Shown one piece after another: positions 1-32,851 of a stretch of DNA of 33,810 nucleotides (the first letter of the stretch is position 1; each line of letters begins with the position of its first letter). The position numbers and the translations under genes were made by a program. The notes under the pieces are model-generated. The model ran no database searches. It was not told where the DNA came from and saw nothing but the letters and a program-made list of their open reading frames with translations. The stretch covers positions 1 to 33,810 of the forward strand of contig JADHWG010000013.1 of assembly GCA_016783605.1 (NCBI GenBank), read 5' to 3'. The DNA is from Candidatus Omnitrophota bacterium. GTDB lineage: Bacteria > Omnitrophota > Gorgyraeia > Tantalellales > Tantalellaceae.

Positions 1-3000
1 GGCAGTATTTCTCTTGAAGAAAGTTTGGACTTTTTACGGATGTATTTAGCACTCAGTATTAACAGTCACCGTGAAGGGGTTTTTGGTATACCTGTATTGG
101 GGAATGTCGCTGGTCGTTATAAATTACTTCCGGAGACAACCGAGCAGATAGTTCGTGTTCTGGCAAAATATGACAAAGAGAGGAACATCGAGAAGATAAA
201 GAAAGAAGTAACATCATTTTTGACAAAAGATAGATCTCAAAAAGATAAATCAAGGTCTTTGCACAAGCTTTTCACCAGGTGTGATAGTAATGGGTTCAGC
301 GTTCCGGAATCTTTCCTCGAATTATCAAAAGCAATGACAGCGGCAAACTCCATTTTCAAGGATGATCAGAATAACAGCATCTTATCCTCCGAAGAGATGT
401 TGAGCCACATTCAAACATTTGTCGAATACAGAGGACAAAAAGAAGCCACGAAGAAAATAGACCCGGACGGAGTCCGAGGCTCTCTTCTTCCCGCCCATGC
501 CGAAGGTATGCCGCTTGAGAACCCTCAACCGATTTCAAAGAATGGGATTTGGGATATAGGTGGGATTAAGGAAAGTGTAATACCGGACGCGGCTCGGCTG
601 GTTGTTGGTGAAACAACCGTTTATATAGATAACGATCTTATCCGGCAATATAAGGCGTTTGGATTTGAAGATCAAAAGTCCTTTGTCGAATTTCTGAGTG
701 GCTTTTTCGCGGATGAAATTTTGGCGTGTCCGATAACACAGAAAGAGCTGGTTATTTCTGTTCTTGACACAGCTGGATACCTTTTTGAGGATCATTTGGC
801 TAATGGATTTATTGGCATTCATCGGTCATTGTTTGAAAAACTTGGTTCTACCCCGCAAACCGCGCGTGAGCTTCTTGCTGTCGGTCTTAAACATGAACTT
901 TCGCATGAGGCGTTATTTATGGAAAGGGAAGTGCTTATTGCTAATTCCATGAATGCTGACGAATTTATTGGTCGCAATCGCGCTGATATTAAAAAGGCTA
1001 TGCGGAAAAAAGGGCTTTGGCGGGAAGTGGAAAAGAGGATGCTTGAAGAGGACATAAAGAACGCTGAAAAAATGGGGCTGAACATACAAGAGATCATCTC
1101 AAGCGGTCTTTTATCCGAATCAGCGCCTTTTGCGCGTGGAATGGTTAGGGGAAGTGTTCGAAGTGAAGAGGTAGATAAAGAATTTTTGCAAAAACCGCCG
1201 CCGGGAGCGGGCGGAGAGATTGAGCAGGTACTTATTGATCCGGCGGAGGTTATACGGAGCGATGGGTGGAGGTCTTTGGCGAATACGGTGTCTTTTATGA
1301 GAGAAATCCTGAATTCATCTTGGAAATCAAGATTGGAGAATAAAGAATATTTTGAAATGTGTGAAAACAAAAATTTTCGGGAAAAAGCTCAGGAGATTTT
1401 TGAAAAGAGAAAGATGATTCCAGCGAGAATAGATACCTACATATTTAACCAAAATAAATATATTGAAAATGCTTTGGTAGAGCTTATCGCGAACGCCCAG
1501 GACGCTGAAATCGAAGAGAAAGCTATCGGCCGGTTCGGCGCGGGATTTTATCAGATTTTTCAGGAATTATACAAAACGCAAGGTGCTTCAATAGTTGTTA
1601 CTACGTCAGATGATGGAAAAAAAGCGTTAAGAACAGAATTTAAATTGATAAGTGGAGAGGTTTGTTACAAGGAACCGGAGATAGTAACAGAAAAAGTGGA
1701 ACAGGGCACTAAAATAGAAGTTAAACGCGAGTTATCGCCTGATGAAATAAATGAGCGCATTAAATACGCGAAATCTAAATTAAAAGCTAATACACGCGGG
1801 AAAATAATGATAAATGGAGAATGGATAAATGATGTCAGAAAATACCGGTATATTAATGGGGATGCACTCCCGCCTATGCCTAATATTCCCGCTATTCAGG
1901 TTGAGGTAACGAAAACAGGGTATGTAGTTACGGATAGAGGACGCGGCATAAGCGCTAAGAAGATGTTTGAGAAACTTTTAACGCCTAAAGAGTCTCCGAA
2001 TGCCATGGAAGGCGCGGCTAAAGAAAAAAGTTCTGAGGTGAGGGAAGAGACGAAGATATTTTATTGTAATGAGATTCCCGCTTCCGCGGGAATGACAGAG
2101 GGTGCGGGAATGACAGAAGGTGCGGGAATGACAGAGGGTGCGGGAATGACAGAGGGTGCGGGAATGACAAAAGGAGAAGGACAAGGCGTTGTTTCTATAC
2201 AGGTGAGCGGGGTGATTAACGTTGATGTTCCGATTTTCGGGATGAATATACCGCGAGAGATGATAATAGAGCTTCCGCATGATACGTGGCTTCCGGAATC
2301 CAGGGACGATATCGCGCTGGATGAAATGACAAAAGAAGGACTTATCGCGGCGATGAAAAAAATAACGGATTTGAATAGGGATATTAAAGACCGCTATAGT
2401 CTTTTAAACGCGCTTTCGGTCTTAGTTAAAGAGCTTACAAAAGATACGGAAGACAAAACCTTGCTGTATGAGCTTAAAAAGTTGTGTGGCGTTCTCATCC
2501 GAAAAGAAAAAGCGGAAGGTAAAATAATATTGCCGAACAAAAAAGTATTTATGAATCTTCTCTTACCGGCGGATAAAAAAGATGCTCTTATTTATCTAAA
2601 TGAGGCGCTGTATGAATTTAATCCCGGTTTTTTACCGGGTGCTGAAAAAGTAAAAAATTTCTCTTCCAAAACACACGTGCTTTATACGGCGGATTTGGAT
2701 ACTTCAGGCGACAACGACATATATTTAGAAGGTAAATATGCCAATGAAAAGGGCTGGATCATTATAGACAAAACTATATGGGAGAAGGACAAAAAAGATC
2801 CTGTTTTAATCAATCTTTTGCTTAATTTAGGTATTTCGTACGGGGATAGGGGGCGTGATTTAGGGAACGTAAGTGCCGAAAGAGAGGCAGAGACTCGTCC
2901 GGATGTGACGGAAATTACTAAGGGTATATCATTTATCCAGGATGATGTAAGTGAAAAAAAGATTGCCGAAATTGTAAAGAATATTTTTTCTAAAAGAGCA

Positions 3001-6000
3001 GAAATGATTCTTGGGTCATTTGACGAAGACGATCAGGAATTTATCAGGCAGAAAGCGGCTGAAGCCGTGCGTGCCGGTATTGTAACGGAGGCAAATATTC
3101 CCGAAACAGCCGCGAATTTTGAGGCGTGGCTTGATCTTGTGGTAAAACTGAAAGACGTAATCTCGGAGTTTTCCATAAGCGCTCTCAGGGACAATTGGGT
3201 CGCGAAAGAATTTTTCTGTACCGGGGTCAATGTATTTAGTGGGGATATGCTTTTAGAGATGAAAAAGGCGGGGGATAAAATTTATTTTTGGTATAAGGAC
3301 ACGGTGATTGAAAATCAGAAACTATTTGAAATGGACTTAAATGGCAAAATTAGTCTTCTTGGAGAAAAAATGGAGCCGGTTTTTGTTGGGGATGATGTGT
3401 ATTTCTACGAGTGGGACGAAGGTAGAGAGGCTTTTCAGCTTAGGAACCTCAAGAATGAGGTGATATTGTACGATATAATAAAACTAAGTTCCTCAATGGA
3501 TATGAATGAAATAATAGCTGTAACATTAAATAAAGATGATCGTGTAAAGTTTAACATTATACAAAAAGGTGAAATTTCTGAATTTTGTGAAATAGATTTT
3601 TATCAAGCGACCGAATTTTTACCTTTCGAAAGTATACCATTCATTAGGAAAAGTGGTAAATATGTCTTTGTGGTTAAAGACAAAAATTCCGCGCAAGATG
3701 TTTATAGAATAAATTCCAAAGGACACGTTGTGAAGGTGTATTGGAAAGGCATGACATTGGTGAGTTTGGGAACAATATCGGATATTAAAGTTCTGGAAAA
3801 CGGCAGTTTTATGGTTTCGGGAATGTTTCCGAACATGTTTGAATTACTCATCAACAAGACGATCAAAAAAGAATTTGATATATTTCTTTTTGATGTTGAC
3901 GGAGTTTTGATCCAAAACCCTACGGGATCAGGTCATTCGATAGAACCTAAAGGGAAAATAGTAAAAAGGTATGATGGCTATATTTATTTTGTAGAATTTG
4001 GTTTTCTCAAAAGATGGAAAGGCGGAAGGGATGTAGAAATATTTGTGGAGAATAGGGGTTTTATGGCGGTGGATATGGATGAGGCGCGTACGCTTCAACC
4101 GCCATTACTTCCGTTACAGCCCATGCATGGCGAAATAATGGACATACAGTTTTCAGAGAACCACGCATACATTAAGGAAAAAAGAAAAGTAATAACGACA
4201 ACAGCTCCTAGTCCTGTTGAAAACAAAAGAATAATAAAATCTTCATTAAAAGACGGACGGTGCAATGTAATTGGTACATGTACGGGACTGTCGTGGACCA
4301 AGAAGGAAATTCGTGTGGGGGATAAGTTGTGTTTTCATTTGGAAGGCGCGGATGCTTTTGAATCACACATAGCCATAATTGGTGTTGATGATAGTATAAC
4401 ACAAGTGGATTTTAAAAATAAAATTACGAATATTCGGGTGATTGATAACTTGCTTTATGTGACGGAAAGGACAGAGTTTAAAATGCCATCCAGGGTTTTA
4501 TGTGCAAAGAACACGATATATAGAATTACTGCGGAAGGCTGGAAAGAACCAGTTTATGAAATCAGCGGTCATGCTTTGAATATCCTAAAACCGGGTAATT
4601 TAGAAGCAGATTCGCGATTTATCTTTAAAAGGATAGATGAACAGTTACCACATAAAGAAAGAGTGTTCACTATGGAAACCGCCATATTTAACATGGAAAC
4701 CGGGAAAGAAAACAGAATAAGAGGATATCGTATGGGAGATGAAGACGCATTGATAAATAACAACATTGTTCAGGTTGATAACACGAAAATTATACTTCGA
4801 CCGACATTCAATTCTGTTATCAATAATCAGAAATTATTCGGCCGAAATCTCGAAAAACTGGAAAAATCAATACCTCAAATCGGTAGGTATATACCGGAAT
4901 TGGCAGAAAAAGAAATCTTGCAGTTAATATCCACTTTACAAACACGTGAGAACTGGATGCCGGCATATATCTTTCTGTTCCCGCGTTTTGATGAAGAAGG
5001 CATGGATAAACTGGAAAATGTATTTAATGAGATCTTTCAAAAAGCAAAAAGTGTTAAGGAAATAAGGACGATATTTTCGTTTGTTAATGATGTTCTTTGG
5101 GATGTGAACGATAAGGATATGGCGCGTGGTGTCTTGGAAAGATGGATGCGGATTTTTTCATGTAACAGGGAACTTGCGGATATTGTTTCTCAGAAAATGC
5201 AGGAGGCAATTTGTGTGGATAGTGGTGAAATTCCGATTGATCTTCGGCCACTTACGATTTATTGTGATTTTCCAAGCACGCTTAATCAACTGCCGCAGGA
5301 GGTTCATTTCTTTCTAAATTTTCTGGTACAAGAAAAGATCACCGCGCCGAAAGTTATCAAATCCGATCGTTTTGAAGGCGGAAAAATCGATGGGGAAATT
5401 CTGAAGAATCGGCCTTTGGCGGCGCTTATGAGGCTCAGACAAAAAGCTCCGGAAAGCGTCATGCGACGTGATATTGAGTGGAGCACGATAATGGATAAAA
5501 TTAAAGAGGTTAATGATGAAGAGCTCGGAGGTATCAAACGTGAAATTACGGGCGCCGTTAACGGTCAGGATAAAAAACAGATGTTTTTTATCCGGGAATT
5601 CGGTCAGAACGCGCGTGACGCCATTAGATCGATGTTGGGGGTAAAAGTTAAAAGCGGATTTTTGGGGCACGGATTCTATACAGGGTTTGCCGGCAAATGT
5701 GATGAAATAAGGATAATTACAGGCAACGGCAAAGAAACTTATGAACTTGTGCTTATCCCGGAATATGACGCCAAAGAGGACCTCACGGACGCCCAAATAA
5801 AAACAATGACGAAGTATCTTTCAGATTATAAAGGGACGCGTATTGAAAAAGCCGAATTTTTTGAATCTCAGGCTGATATGGACGCTATGATCAAGATTAT
5901 GTATTCGAGATATCAGGCAAAGAAGTTTTTGGGCGCGGTTCCTGCCAAAGGAGCTGGAGGCGTTACATTTCTTTTTAATGATGAGGTGATAAATGAGGAC

Positions 6001-8856
6001 GGATATCTGAACGAAGATCCCAACAGGATCGTTAAAATTACCAGCGGTATGACGGAGCGTCCCAATGATAGAGGTTATTACGAATGGATCGCGTCGTGTG
6101 AAGACCCTGTGGGGATGGATCTTTTTACGATTCTCAATAAATTGCTCCCGCCGGATGTTTCAGGAAAACCGTCTCATGGAAAAACATCCGCGGCGGATAT
6201 AGGCAAAGGTATAAAATCAAGTTTCAGTAAATCCGGGACAACCCGGGTAAACGTTGATAATCTTTATGTAGACAAAATTGACAGCAAATATACGCGTTTG
6301 GTTCCTGAGTCGATTTTGAAAATACTGCTAAAAAAAGGCTGGAACATTGAGTTTCCCGCCGGAACGCCTGTTCCGAGAACCCGAAACGGTGTGATTAATC
6401 CAGGGCAGTATGAAAAGTGGATCGCGGTTTCAGCGTTTAAAGCGTTGATTGATCTATATATTCGAGAGAAAGACGTTGAGATTCCGCTTATTCCGAAAGA
6501 TTACGTATATTCAAGAACAAGCATTATTGAACCCGCCAGAGATGTTGCCGGAGACGTTGAGATGATAAAACAAGATTATCCGGAAGGTGTGAATTTTGAA
6601 AAATATCTGAAAGATCCGTTCGCTTTAGTCCAGCTTTTAACGGTTATTGAGGTGATTTACGACGGGGAGGAATTTACGATCAACGAAACTAAAAGGAGAG
6701 TTTTAAAGGAATATGAGAAAAAAGATGCAACAGAAGTAAGTTTAAAAGGTGTATTACCTCCGGGAATGGAAGATCAGGCGAAAAGAGCCGAAGACTATAT
6801 CCGCGGTAAGGTTTCTGCCATAGAAGCGGATATAGATGATTTGTTGGACGAACCTGTATTTCGGGTTTTTAGGAATTTTTTTAGCGAACTAAACCGATTT
6901 ATAGAAGCGGAAAATAATACCAGCTTGTTCGAATGTGTTTATAACGCGACGAATGATGCTTCCGCCGCGAAAAATAGCAGACATGTGTGGTGGAATTTGG
7001 CTCATCATTCCTATATTTTAGATCCCTTTGTTGATTTTATTACTAAAGGAGATACCGGTGGGAATTTTCAGAAGTTTATTGATACCTACATTCACGAATC
7101 TGCGCACATAGAAGAACGTTCCGTCTCTTCCAAATATAGGCGTCAATCCACGCATCAGGTGGAGCAAGATGTAAAAGATTCTTTCGGTTGGATAATGAAA
7201 AAACTTTTAACCAAAATGATAAAGGAGATAAAACCTTTGGAAGAGTTTCGTCAGGAATTCCGCGCGTCTATGTCGTATTCGGACGAAGAATTAAAAAAGT
7301 CCTATGATAAGGTAATGGCAGAAATAAAAAATCGAAGAAAAACAGCCATCACCGGCGATATCATTAAAGGGTTTAAGCCTGATGAAGAAGCGCGGCTTCG
7401 CGCGGAGATATTGGCTAATAGCGGTGCGGTGATGGAGGCGAATGAGGATGTTGTGAAAGTTGTGGAGGAGAGGTGCCGGGGGCTTAAGGGGAATGTTGAG
7501 TTTTTATTGGAGACAAGAGGGGTTTCTGAAATTCAGATCAAAAAGGTTATGTATGCTTTGGAATCGCCGCGGACGGCATTTAAATGGTTTATGGCTGTTG
7601 TAGAGGGGAAGAATAAATATCTTTTGGGGCATGAAAGCGCTTTGGCTGTTAATGTCATAAAGTATCTTTTGGTGCAGGAAAAATTGCAGGGGATCGAAGA
7701 GCTTGTTGATGAATATATTCTGCATGAAGCTTTGGAGAATTTGAATTTTGGGTGTTCGAAATCTGAAAAACACTATGAAATTATTAAGTTTACAAGTTTA
7801 TATTTCAGGCATAAAACATACAACGCCCCTGTTTTAACGCCTTTGGGGAAAGCTTTGAGGGCTTTTATAGATATTTCCGTTCGGAACAAAGGAACTGTTA
7901 ACAGTATGCTAAGGGTGCAACCTGCTAATGTTATGCCTCTAGAGCCTGTTGAAGAAATTCAAAAAACTGGGCAAGTACCACAATCTAACATATCCGGAGT
8001 CGGTAACGAAGAAACGGGTTTTCAGCCTTACAATAGCAGTGTGAAACCGGAATTTAAACCGTTATTTTCCGATCCTGAAAGACCGGCAAAATTTGAAAAG
8101 TTAGTTCCCAAATCTCCTATACCGCGATTCGAAACGACAACTTTCGTAAAAACGCATGATACGGTCAAAGATCGAAAAGCGGCGACCATTGAGGCGTTTA
8201 ATAGCGAACCTCCGACAAGAGAGCGCGATCCGATCGCGATAGTGGGACTTCCGGCGTGGATGAAAGGCGAGGTTAAGCTCCTCAATGGGTTGAAGAGGGA
8301 TATAAGCCGTGCTCTGGGGCGTGCCGGGCATGGCAAGCCGAACGATCCGCATAAGGTTGATTTCTTTTTTATGGGCAAAAATAAGCCGAAAGAGACAAAA
8401 ACGAGTATAACAAATATTTTACGCAAATATGAAAACAGAAAATCCGTTCTATTTATACCTGAAATGCCGGAGTTGAAGATAAAATCTGACTCTGTATACG
8501 TAAAAGGTTTGGAAAAGGAGTTTGAGAAAAACCTTACGATAGTTCCCGATGCCTATACCGACCTGGATTTTTCTGAGAAAGGAAAAGTTTTTGTGGATAT
8601 TACCGCGCGTATCGCGATAACGCGGCTTATCGGATGGTATAAAGAATCAGAGATTTCCGGCAATTCGTTCGCGCAAATTGAGGCGATGACGGCGTTAACG
8701 GAATATCTTTTAAAAATTACCGGGGAAGACGCGACGAAGATAAAGGACTTAAACGTATTGCTCAAAAACTTGCTTCTAAGGATAAGACCGGTGGATTATA
8801 ACGGTGATTTTAAAAATTGGGAAAAAGCTCAAAAGGCTCTGGCGACGTCGCTGTAA
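1..8856 (+). CDS. Giant multidomain protein with two GHKL-like ATPase motif sets and two HExxH motifs (5' partial)
   Basis: The frame is open from base 1, so the gene starts outside the window; TTG at 25 is only the first in-window start codon. At least 2,951 residues (numbering below from TTG 25). I see HELSH at 290-294 (metalloprotease-like). A GHKL/HSP90-like set follows: N-box ELIANAQDA near 486-494, glycine box IGRFGAGFY 501-509, GT 561-562, and DRGRGI 637-642. A beta-rich, propeller-like stretch spans about 1060-1580. A second set is N-box FGQNARDAI (Asn1862), GFLGHGFY 1878-1885, GT 1937-1938 and EDPVGM near 2026-2031. A second HExxH, HESAH, is at 2357-2361. The C-terminal domain (about 2730-2943) is alpha/beta and ends KALATSL. 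No signal peptide can be judged. Giant proteins like this are typical of Omnitrophota; function is unknown. I infer an ATP-binding, possibly chaperone- or protease-like machine. Confidence 0.9.
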   Translation, partial: GSISLEESLDFLRMYLALSINSHREGVFGIPVLGNVAGRYKLLPETTEQIVRVLAKYDKERNIEKIKKEVTSFLTKDRSQKDKSRSLHKLFTRCDSNGFSVPESFLELSKAMTAANSIFKDDQNNSILSSEEMLSHIQTFVEYRGQKEATKKIDPDGVRGSLLPAHAEGMPLENPQPISKNGIWDIGGIKESVIPDAARLVVGETTVYIDNDLIRQYKAFGFEDQKSFVEFLSGFFADEILACPITQKELVISVLDTAGYLFEDHLANGFIGIHRSLFEKLGSTPQTARELLAVGLKHELSHEALFMEREVLIANSMNADEFIGRNRADIKKAMRKKGLWREVEKRMLEEDIKNAEKMGLNIQEIISSGLLSESAPFARGMVRGSVRSEEVDKEFLQKPPPGAGGEIEQVLIDPAEVIRSDGWRSLANTVSFMREILNSSWKSRLENKEYFEMCENKNFREKAQEIFEKRKMIPARIDTYIFNQNKYIENALVELIANAQDAEIEEKAIGRFGAGFYQIFQELYKTQGASIVVTTSDDGKKALRTEFKLISGEVCYKEPEIVTEKVEQGTKIEVKRELSPDEINERIKYAKSKLKANTRGKIMINGEWINDVRKYRYINGDALPPMPNIPAIQVEVTKTGYVVTDRGRGISAKKMFEKLLTPKESPNAMEGAAKEKSSEVREETKIFYCNEIPASAGMTEGAGMTEGAGMTEGAGMTEGAGMTKGEGQGVVSIQVSGVINVDVPIFGMNIPREMIIELPHDTWLPESRDDIALDEMTKEGLIAAMKKITDLNRDIKDRYSLLNALSVLVKELTKDTEDKTLLYELKKLCGVLIRKEKAEGKIILPNKKVFMNLLLPADKKDALIYLNEALYEFNPGFLPGAEKVKNFSSKTHVLYTADLDTSGDNDIYLEGKYANEKGWIIIDKTIWEKDKKDPVLINLLLNLGISYGDRGRDLGNVSAEREAETRPDVTEITKGISFIQDDVSEKKIAEIVKNIFSKRAEMILGSFDEDDQEFIRQKAAEAVRAGIVTEANIPETAANFEAWLDLVVKLKDVISEFSISALRDNWVAKEFFCTGVNVFSGDMLLEMKKAGDKIYFWYKDTVIENQKLFEMDLNGKISLLGEKMEPVFVGDDVYFYEWDEGREAFQLRNLKNEVILYDIIKLSSSMDMNEIIAVTLNKDDRVKFNIIQKGEISEFCEIDFYQATEFLPFESIPFIRKSGKYVFVVKDKNSAQDVYRINSKGHVVKVYWKGMTLVSLGTISDIKVLENGSFMVSGMFPNMFELLINKTIKKEFDIFLFDVDGVLIQNPTGSGHSIEPKGKIVKRYDGYIYFVEFGFLKRWKGGRDVEIFVENRGFMAVDMDEARTLQPPLLPLQPMHGEIMDIQFSENHAYIKEKRKVITTTAPSPVENKRIIKSSLKDGRCNVIGTCTGLSWTKKEIRVGDKLCFHLEGADAFESHIAIIGVDDSITQVDFKNKITNIRVIDNLLYVTERTEFKMPSRVLCAKNTIYRITAEGWKEPVYEISGHALNILKPGNLEADSRFIFKRIDEQLPHKERVFTMETAIFNMETGKENRIRGYRMGDEDALINNNIVQVDNTKIILRPTFNSVINNQKLFGRNLEKLEKSIPQIGRYIPELAEKEILQLISTLQTRENWMPAYIFLFPRFDEEGMDKLENVFNEIFQKAKSVKEIRTIFSFVNDVLWDVNDKDMARGVLERWMRIFSCNRELADIVSQKMQEAICVDSGEIPIDLRPLTIYCDFPSTLNQLPQEVHFFLNFLVQEKITAPKVIKSDRFEGGKIDGEILKNRPLAALMRLRQKAPESVMRRDIEWSTIMDKIKEVNDEELGGIKREITGAVNGQDKKQMFFIREFGQNARDAIRSMLGVKVKSGFLGHGFYTGFAGKCDEIRIITGNGKETYELVLIPEYDAKEDLTDAQIKTMTKYLSDYKGTRIEKAEFFESQADMDAMIKIMYSRYQAKKFLGAVPAKGAGGVTFLFNDEVINEDGYLNEDPNRIVKITSGMTERPNDRGYYEWIASCEDPVGMDLFTILNKLLPPDVSGKPSHGKTSAADIGKGIKSSFSKSGTTRVNVDNLYVDKIDSKYTRLVPESILKILLKKGWNIEFPAGTPVPRTRNGVINPGQYEKWIAVSAFKALIDLYIREKDVEIPLIPKDYVYSRTSIIEPARDVAGDVEMIKQDYPEGVNFEKYLKDPFALVQLLTVIEVIYDGEEFTINETKRRVLKEYEKKDATEVSLKGVLPPGMEDQAKRAEDYIRGKVSAIEADIDDLLDEPVFRVFRNFFSELNRFIEAENNTSLFECVYNATNDASAAKNSRHVWWNLAHHSYILDPFVDFITKGDTGGNFQKFIDTYIHESAHIEERSVSSKYRRQSTHQVEQDVKDSFGWIMKKLLTKMIKEIKPLEEFRQEFRASMSYSDEELKKSYDKVMAEIKNRRKTAITGDIIKGFKPDEEARLRAEILANSGAVMEANEDVVKVVEERCRGLKGNVEFLLETRGVSEIQIKKVMYALESPRTAFKWFMAVVEGKNKYLLGHESALAVNVIKYLLVQEKLQGIEELVDEYILHEALENLNFGCSKSEKHYEIIKFTSLYFRHKTYNAPVLTPLGKALRAFIDISVRNKGTVNSMLRVQPANVMPLEPVEEIQKTGQVPQSNISGVGNEETGFQPYNSSVKPEFKPLFSDPERPAKFEKLVPKSPIPRFETTTFVKTHDTVKDRKAATIEAFNSEPPTRERDPIAIVGLPAWMKGEVKLLNGLKRDISRALGRAGHGKPNDPHKVDFFFMGKNKPKETKTSITNILRKYENRKSVLFIPEMPELKIKSDSVYVKGLEKEFEKNLTIVPDAYTDLDFSEKGKVFVDITARIAITRLIGWYKESEISGNSFAQIEAMTALTEYLLKITGEDATKIKDLNVLLKNLLLRIRPVDYNGDFKNWEKAQKALATSL
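2071..2175. repeat. In-frame palindromic repeat plus five 18-bp tandem units inside the giant gene
   Basis: A palindrome of the type ATTCCCGC...GCGGGAAT lies at 2073-2094. Its right arm leads into five tandem 18-bp units (2086-2175, unit GCGGGAATGACAGAGGGT with few changes). They encode AGMTEG five times without breaking the frame. The insert sits just after the first DRGRGI motif, before a stretch that resumes with a normal domain sequence (VDVPIFGMNIPREM). This looks like an intergenic-type repeat that landed in a surface loop and then expanded by slippage. Confidence 0.9.
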
Positions 8857-18011: not shown

Positions 18012-18072
18012 CCGCCAAACAACCTCGTAGGTTTCAACCTACGAGGTTGAAACCTACGAGGTTGTTTGGCGG
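18012..18072 (+). terminator. Perfect 27-bp-stem palindrome after tilS
   Basis: Bases 18012-18038 and 18046-18072 are exact reverse complements with a seven-base loop CTACGAG. The stem contains the AACCTCGTAGGTT motif three times over the whole hairpin. TTTTGATGG follows, so the T-run is short; hairpin strength is extreme. It separates tilS from the ftsH promoter. Confidence 0.75.
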
Positions 18073-24365: not shown

Positions 24366-24420
24366 CCTACAAAAACAACCTCGTAGGTTGCAAAACAACC
24401 TACGAGGTTGTTTTTGTAGG
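24366..24420 (+). terminator. Perfect 25-bp-stem palindrome after nnrD
   Basis: Arms 24366-24390 and 24396-24420 are exact reverse complements with a five-base CAAAA loop; the right arm carries TTTTTG near its end. The AACCTCGTAGGTT core matches the palindrome after tilS. Its place 20 bases after the stop supports termination. Confidence 0.75.
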
Positions 24421-32371: not shown

Positions 32372-32851
32372 GTGCGTAAATCTCTTTGTTTGTGTTTTGT
32401 GTTGATATTGGCGATCGGTTTTTCAAGCGGCGCGTTTGCCGGAAATTATTCATCGGCGGATGGGTCAAGAGAGGAAGGACAGTCGTTAGGCGGCGGGGAT
32501 TATATGTCGGAAAAAGGGGTGAGATCTCCCGGACAAGAACTTGGCGGCGGAGATTATATGTCGGAAAGTGGAGTAAGAGCGCCTGGTCAAGGGTTAGGCG
32601 GAGGAGATTATATGTCGGAAGATGGAGTGAGAGCGCCCGGGCAAGGTATGGGTGGCGGAGATTATTTCTCGGAAAACGGGCAAAGAGTGCCGGATCAGAA
32701 TTTAACGGGAAATGTTTATCAGACCGGTGCGGGAACGATAGCAAATCCTAAAATGATAAGCGGGGGGAATTATTATCCCGCCGCCGGTGAGGCGCCGGAA
32801 AAGAAGAACAGCAATATAGTCGACAAAAAAGGGGACATGCTTGTCTCGTAA
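32372..32851 (+). CDS. Secreted protein of 18-residue repeats
   Basis: 159 residues from GTG 32372 (GGGGAAGG upstream). A signal peptide (RKSLCLCFVLILAIGFSSG, then AFA) is cut near residue 23. The mature part has six or seven 18-residue units; the best four start GGGD(Y)(M/F)SE and contain G(V/Q)R.P.Q, as in GGGDYMSEKGVRSPGQEL. The last units decay (TGNVYQTG, SGGNYYPA). Regular Gly-rich repeats of this size suggest a beta-structured surface or fibre-forming protein. Family not recognised; it has no Cys after the signal. Confidence 0.8.
   Translation: MRKSLCLCFVLILAIGFSSGAFAGNYSSADGSREEGQSLGGGDYMSEKGVRSPGQELGGGDYMSESGVRAPGQGLGGGDYMSEDGVRAPGQGMGGGDYFSENGQRVPDQNLTGNVYQTGAGTIANPKMISGGNYYPAAGEAPEKKNSNIVDKKGDMLVS

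Follow-up and report, generated by a model that had tools for sequence, protein, structure and literature searches.

Two HSP90-like GHKL domains with a displaced G1 motif in a giant protein of an Omnitrophota bacterium

A giant open reading frame (ORF) of a Candidatus Omnitrophota bacterium encodes two GHKL/HSP90-like domains, dom1 and, after a spacer, dom2, and in both of them the motifs stand in the order N-box, G2, GT, G1 (N-G2-GT-G1) instead of the order N-G1-G2-GT that defines GHKL ATPases. This order is conserved for dom1 in 29 genomes, the domains are homologous to those of HSP90-like proteins, dom1 has retained its ATPase motifs, and the displacement arose twice. We consider it reasonably probable that dom1 and dom2 are a paralogous HSP90-like GHKL pair, each with the same non-circular permutation, that operates by the mechanism proposed below. 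To our knowledge, the GHKL superfamily (gyrase, HSP90, histidine kinases, MutL, MORC) has one invariant motif order. The window protein is apparently the first natural case of a moved G1-lid module, and it presents that case twice, at the same site in the paralogues of one protein.

Domain architecture and homology

The window (the whole stretch of DNA analysed, 33,810 bases) is one complete contig of a 1.65-Mb genome, and the features of its giant ORF are listed in Table 1. Residue numbers used here exceed those of the preliminary description by 8, because the latter counted from a TTG at nucleotide 25. A Pfam search of the whole window ORF returned neither a GHKL nor an HSP90 match, Pfam matches were almost absent from this and related giant ORFs, and single-sequence PDB searches gave nothing useful. 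Standard domain libraries miss these GHKL domains because the displaced order breaks the profile.

Table 1. Features of the giant ORF in the window (nucleotide positions)
Feature	Position	Strand	Basis
Giant ORF, 2951 aa, 5' end cut by contig edge	1..8856	+	translation of window
dom1 core, GHKL/HSP90-like, order N-G2-GT-G1	1417..2028	+	
dom1 N-box ELIANAQDA, aa 494-502; catalytic-type E and Asn kept	1480..1506	+	
dom1 G2 AIGRFGAGFYQ, directly after N-box	1522..1554	+	
dom1 GT motif and strand EQGTKIEVK	1699..1725	+	
dom1 strand GKIMINGEWIND; transposed module inserted after it	1798..1833	+	alignment with canonical relatives
dom1 transposed module: beta-hairpin, G1, lid helix and lid	1894..1995	+	
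dom1 G1 DRGRGI, inside transposed module	1933..1950	+	
18-bp tandem array between lid and next domain, in frame, within dispersed genomic repeat	2086..2169	+	
Conserved segment LP..t.LpeSRD..alD	2251..2322	+	
dom2 core, GHKL/HSP90-like, order N-G2-GT-G1	5539..6195	+	
dom2 N-box REFGQNARDA	5593..5622	+	
dom2 G2 SGFLGHGFYT	5653..5682	+	
dom2 GT YKGTRIE	5827..5847	+	
dom2 strand GVTFLFNDEVINEDG; module inserted after it, site equivalent to that of dom1	5959..6003	+	
dom2 transposed module: hairpin, shortened G1, lid helix	6025..6168	+	
dom2 shortened G1 EDPVGM, inside transposed module	6100..6117	+	

The motif set of dom1 is that of GHKL ATPases, with an E..xN..DA N-box, a DxGxG G1, a GxxGxG G2 (IGRFGAGFY) and a GT motif (GTKI). 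An N-box, a G2 (GFLGHGFY) and a GT motif (GTRI) are likewise present in dom2, where EDPVGM at the G1 position has the form DxxGM and departs from DxGxG. Some 6 residues lie between the N-box and G2 of dom1 and some 10 between those of dom2, a gap that holds no overlooked canonical G1, and the G1-like motifs of both domains follow G2 by well over 100 residues. The preliminary description had reported two GHKL/HSP90-like sets, each running from N-box through G2 and GT to a late G1; all of these motifs lie where it placed them, and its observation turned out to be stronger than stated. The 'LL-x-P-x-x-S' stretch that it noted after the late G1 corresponds to the lid helix/lid motif, which canonical relatives also carry after G1.

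Alignment with canonical relatives identified the moved unit as a beta-hairpin, G1, the lid helix and the lid. In dom1 its insertion point follows the strand '[IL]NGE.IN' and lies between '..YING' and 'IFYCN/IYYSN'; in dom2 it follows the equivalent strand, FNDEVIN. The conserved segment LP..t.LpeSRD..alD may be a transducer with a basic catalytic residue. The 18-bp array upstream of it encodes GAGMTE repeats and is missing from the G193 orthologue; the dispersed repeat that holds the array has 26 other matches in the window's genome. Downstream of dom2, an HExxH-type stretch, TYIHES.H (7087-7107), is conserved in G193 (locus L063, aa about 2896), and two further HE-x-x-[HE] stretches occur in the window ORF at nt 889-918 and 7717-7737.

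Homology to HSP90 became apparent when profiles were compared. The transposed-order profile A3 found HtpG and TRAP1 in the PDB, with HtpG 7u4c as the best match (E 7.5e-8). Positions 31-42, 172-222 and 33-137 of A3 aligned to HtpG 29-40, 57-108 and 99-192, respectively, so that the pieces read N, G1, G2-GT along HtpG and N, G2-GT, G1 along the profile. Likewise, hhalign comparison of the 29 transposed dom1s with this phylum's HtpG gave three fragments (E 1.2e-9, 2.7e-5 and 2e-4). When the dom1 segments were cut and re-ordered, a single 166-column alignment with HtpG was obtained at E 3.4e-18, compared to 1.2e-9 before, and among the six possible segment orders N-G1-G2 scored best. Homology is thus supported over chance both by this repaired HtpG match and by the collinear A3 matches in 29 genomes, and the profile comparison with GHKL families that the preliminary description had proposed has HtpG matched in pieces of differing order. 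Compared alone with HtpG, dom2 matched weakly; it is clearly orthologous to canonical dom2s. The dom1 profile A2 also matched GyrB (4urm, E 9.5e-7). No match to the HtpG middle domain was found by hhalign in the segment after dom1, and the middle and C-terminal dimerisation domains that follow the ATPase domain of HSP90 chaperones were not detected in this arrangement.

Structure prediction had been suggested as a check in the preliminary description; AlphaFold2 models of dom1 were built from four alignment rows and were of low confidence, with pLDDT 41.3 and pTM 0.32 for the full domain and pLDDT 58.6 and pTM 0.60 for the core. Foldseek searches with these models returned no significant match (best E 0.21); the highest probabilities among the listed matches went to the GHKL domains of topoisomerases II and VI-B, with E values that were not significant. 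The secondary structure of the models comprises a helix (N-box), a helix (G2), five strands (the last being GT), a helix, a strand, a hairpin and a helix. These predicted elements would be the expected elements of the Bergerat fold in transposed order.

Relatives and two origins of the displaced segment

Profile searches covered 384 genomes of the window's class and 384 of the phylum. Collinear matches to profile A3 were obtained for 29 proteins from 29 genomes, with its full length covered in nearly every case, and canonical relatives matched it only in fragments that run out of order (G306, for instance, at profile positions 167-225, then 49-155, then 224-369). The 29 genomes represent many families, mostly of the window's class, with G398 and G424 elsewhere in the phylum, and all 29 proteins sit in open frames. 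At 17-53% identity to the window copy, these dom1s keep the N-box E...N..D in 27 of 29 cases, DxGxG in 27 and G2 in 28, which suggests that the dom1 nucleotide site is in use; the lid often keeps a G-x-K/T-x-K-like motif as well.

A canonical-type dom1 was found in eleven proteins, and G003 contains canonical and transposed dom1 types within one genome. Canonical giants with the layout dom1-spacer-dom2 occur in G003 (contig 11), G027, G151, G306, G412 and G437, where the G1 region of the G437 dom1 was not recovered; G003 and G027 belong to the window's class, and their giant ORFs have both GHKL domains in canonical order. A transposed dom1 and a canonical dom2 share one ORF in G015, of the window's own family, and in about 15 other proteins. 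A transposed dom2 was found in the window and in G193, a genome of the same class, and nowhere else among the genomes surveyed; the 108 genomes of the G193 family contained no further case. A genome-wide scan with profile A4 returned one locus, L095, which is the G193 contig. Conservation between the window ORF and G193 extends beyond the two domains (aa 409-1281 and 1503-2438, 38-40% identity). Searches of viral contigs, plasmids and phages found no relatives, and none of the surveyed sequences combined an old G1 with a new one, as an intermediate would.

No rotation of N-G1-G2-GT yields the cyclic order N-G2-GT-G1. Thus, a circular permutation was rejected, and the rearrangement is a segment transposition, or non-circular permutation. 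In a tree of 68 domains, aligned on re-ordered segments, all dom2s grouped together with support of 100 and the transposed dom1s with support of 98, and the dom2s of the window and G193 were nested among canonical dom2s. Constraining the dom1s of the window and G193 to group with their dom2s cost 85 lnL units (p-AU 8e-8). The nesting of dom2 and the rejection of a single origin by the AU test imply that transposition occurred twice. The dom1 and dom2 paralogues separated while canonical; dom1 underwent a single transposition, in an ancestor from which a large clade descends, and dom2 a separate one, in the lineage of G193 and the window. The canonical dom2 profile matched the window dom2 in four pieces that follow the transposed order (profile 2-30, 85-194, 47-81 and 206-287), and the canonical G200 dom2 has SIEDPAGMDLSTI where G193 has SITDPAGMDLHTI, in keeping with a moved segment that belongs to its own paralogue. 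Conversion of dom2 by a copy of dom1 was also considered, and was rejected because dom2 keeps the dom2 signature and the dom2 G1.

The preliminary description had instead proposed an ancient duplication, in which a domain permuted in a single event was later copied within the gene, so that both copies inherited the order. The identical order and insertion site in the two copies are what such a duplication would leave, but it is very improbable given the tree: a tree constrained to hold every transposed domain in a single clade was 80 lnL units worse (p-AU 2.1e-6), since the dom2s of the window and G193 fall inside the canonical dom2s, and such a clade was still rejected (p 0.02) when only the N-box and G2-GT segments, without G1, were used. 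Moreover, the transposed dom1 profile scores at most 5 bits on the window dom2, which the canonical dom2 profile does match, and G015 and its approximately 15 counterparts pair a transposed dom1 with a canonical dom2. An assembly, binning or frame artefact, or a chance occurrence of motifs, could be suspected in a metagenome-assembled genome whose ORF is cut by a contig edge; it is hardly credible for an arrangement found in open frames throughout 29 genomes of many families and in a G193 protein that is 53% identical across both domains.

The second G1 had been described as having lost a glycine, so that one copy might be a pseudo-ATPase. The glycine is indeed missing from dom2, but its absence is not peculiar to this copy, since DxxGM is common in canonical dom2s (DETGM in G003, DRMGM in G027, DPAGM in G200, DPVGM in G159). 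Thus, the loss did not accompany the transposition of dom2. In G200 dom2 (L050, aa 316-382), a close canonical relative, an insertion of approximately 65 residues lies between the N-box and the G1 hairpin, which indicates that the connection from N-box to G1 tolerates change.

Probable export and genomic setting

Signal-peptide-like starts, recognised by the simple rule of a basic residue followed by a hydrophobic core, were found in 24 of 29 two-GHKL giants whose 5' end lies inside the stretch read, and they argue that these giants are probably exported. An AxA-type site often comes next; locus L063 (2366-17038) offers an example of such a start. For the window protein we infer export from its relatives, because its own N-terminus is missing. 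Several giants share an N-terminal stretch, 'V[IV]H[IVL][QR]D.H....AQ..I...I..L', that carried no annotation in the searches made (L047, L056, L058, L129, L137 and L138, in G014, G023, G263, G103, G196 and G398, respectively).

Giant ORFs of Omnitrophota, for which a cut-off of > 20 kb has been used, are believed to have roles in predation or at the cell surface, and their annotation is otherwise poor (PMC10066038). The window ORF measures 8.9 kb as truncated at its 5' end by the contig edge, and its relatives reach 9878 aa and 29.6 kb.

The neighbours of the giant ORF in the window (10306-31640) are ordinary: a DinG-like helicase, an archaeal-type AAA+ protein with DUF234, an epimerase, a tRNase Z-like protein, QueH, a TilS-like PP-loop protein, FtsH, DHPS, a DisA-like DAC, YbbR, PdxJ, an NAD(P)HX dehydratase, a PD-(D/E)XK nuclease and a Trp/Tyr permease. 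A short palindromic unit, CAACCTACGAGGTTG, is repeated in tandem between genes at 18020-18064 and 24372-24410, and a 54/108-bp tandem repeat at 32485-32691 encodes a Gly-rich repeat of the GGGDYMSE.GVRAPGQ type.

Proposed mechanism and comparison with known systems

In GHKL ATPases the G1-lid module contacts adenine and closes over ATP. The module made up of the lid helix and a hairpin ending in G1, which normally lies between the N-box and G2 helices, now occupies the loop after the post-GT strand, where its domain borders on the transducer-like one that follows. We propose that the moved hairpin still packs in the sheet at its ordinary position and completes the ATP pocket of its own domain. 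We predict that dom1 binds and probably hydrolyses ATP, and is a working nucleotide switch; dom2, with a G1 shorter by one residue, may serve as its weaker or regulatory counterpart, and pairing of the two within one chain may resemble that of HSP90 or MutL protomers between chains. In a canonical GHKL domain the lid runs back into G2, whereas here it runs straight into the next domain, so that nucleotide-driven movement of the lid would pull on that domain and bypass G2.

The probable site of action lies outside the cytoplasm, where the protein would be an ATP- or nucleotide-responsive component of the giant proteins that these host-associated bacteria secrete or display on their surface. Such a location fits an exported ATPase poorly, because little ATP is available there; a host or prey cell in contact with the bacterium could, speculatively, be a source. 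Only tentatively, and with some doubt, do we suggest that the exported giants contain working, rewired ATPases with the lid leading into an output domain, that the arrangement arose twice because it is mechanically useful, and that binding of extracellular nucleotide, for instance during host or prey contact, directly drives the giant protein.

Two other readings concern the state of the ATP site. The domains might be degenerate, non-catalytic structural modules in which transposition was tolerated since ATP binding had already been lost. The exported location with its little ATP, the shortened G1 of dom2 and the loss of motif residues in some members (G196, G398) are consistent with this, but the retention of the dom1 N-box, DxGxG and G2 residues in nearly all of the divergent copies, and of the lid motif in many, makes it unlikely. 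It is also possible, though similarly unlikely, that each displaced G1 segment fills out the pocket of a different domain, between dom1 and dom2 or across a dimer, as a built-in domain swap; GHKL dimers are known to exchange strands and lids at the C-terminal edge of the Bergerat domain, which is where the G1 segment lies here. Against a swap, each moved G1 segment is most similar to that of its own paralogue family (22-25 bits for the canonical dom2 profile on the dom2 G1 segments of G193 and the window), and a transposed dom1 can share its protein with a dom2 that has a canonical G1 of its own. We favour the paralogous pair in which each module serves its own pocket. Because canonical and transposed relatives coexist in the phylum, even within G003, fold topology versus lid-coupled mechanics is directly testable. 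The proposal would supply the first predicted biochemical activity for giant Omnitrophota proteins, the functions of which are poorly understood (PMC10066038), and it poses the question of why exported-looking proteins carry an ATPase-like domain.

Among open-licence PMC literature, we found no published GHKL/Bergerat domain with a permuted order. Non-circular permutation, a term already in use (PMC10085705), has been described in another fold, the HK97-like fold of phage BPP-1 (PMC3863775). There, as is proposed here, a segment has moved within the domain and kept its three-dimensional place; the phage fold, however, is neither a GHKL domain nor a nucleotide-binding catalytic module. GHKL domains of GyrB, TopoVI-B and MutL share the motif set of the window domains, but have the canonical order and DNA-linked functions. 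The sacsin N-terminal ATP-binding-like domain (NF047352/Pfam SACS) resembles the window domains as an HSP90-like domain in a giant protein. Sacsin matches were below threshold, at E 0.004-0.008 (NCBIfam) and 0.015 (Pfam, canonical dom2), far below the curated cut-offs, and sacsin domains, unlike those of the window protein, have the canonical motif order.

The N-domain of HSP90, HtpG and TRAP1 is alike in its N-box, DxGxG, GxxGxGF and GT motifs and in the strand-helix-strand after GT, with significant profile similarity, but its order is N-G1-G2-GT, and the window protein has two different paralogues per chain, is giant and is probably exported. By motif order, we conclude that the window domains are a homologous topological variant and not a canonical member of the GHKL family. 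The canonical two-GHKL giants of Omnitrophota share with the window protein the dom1-spacer-dom2 layout and orthologous domains, and differ from it in that G1 has stayed at its canonical position in both domains.
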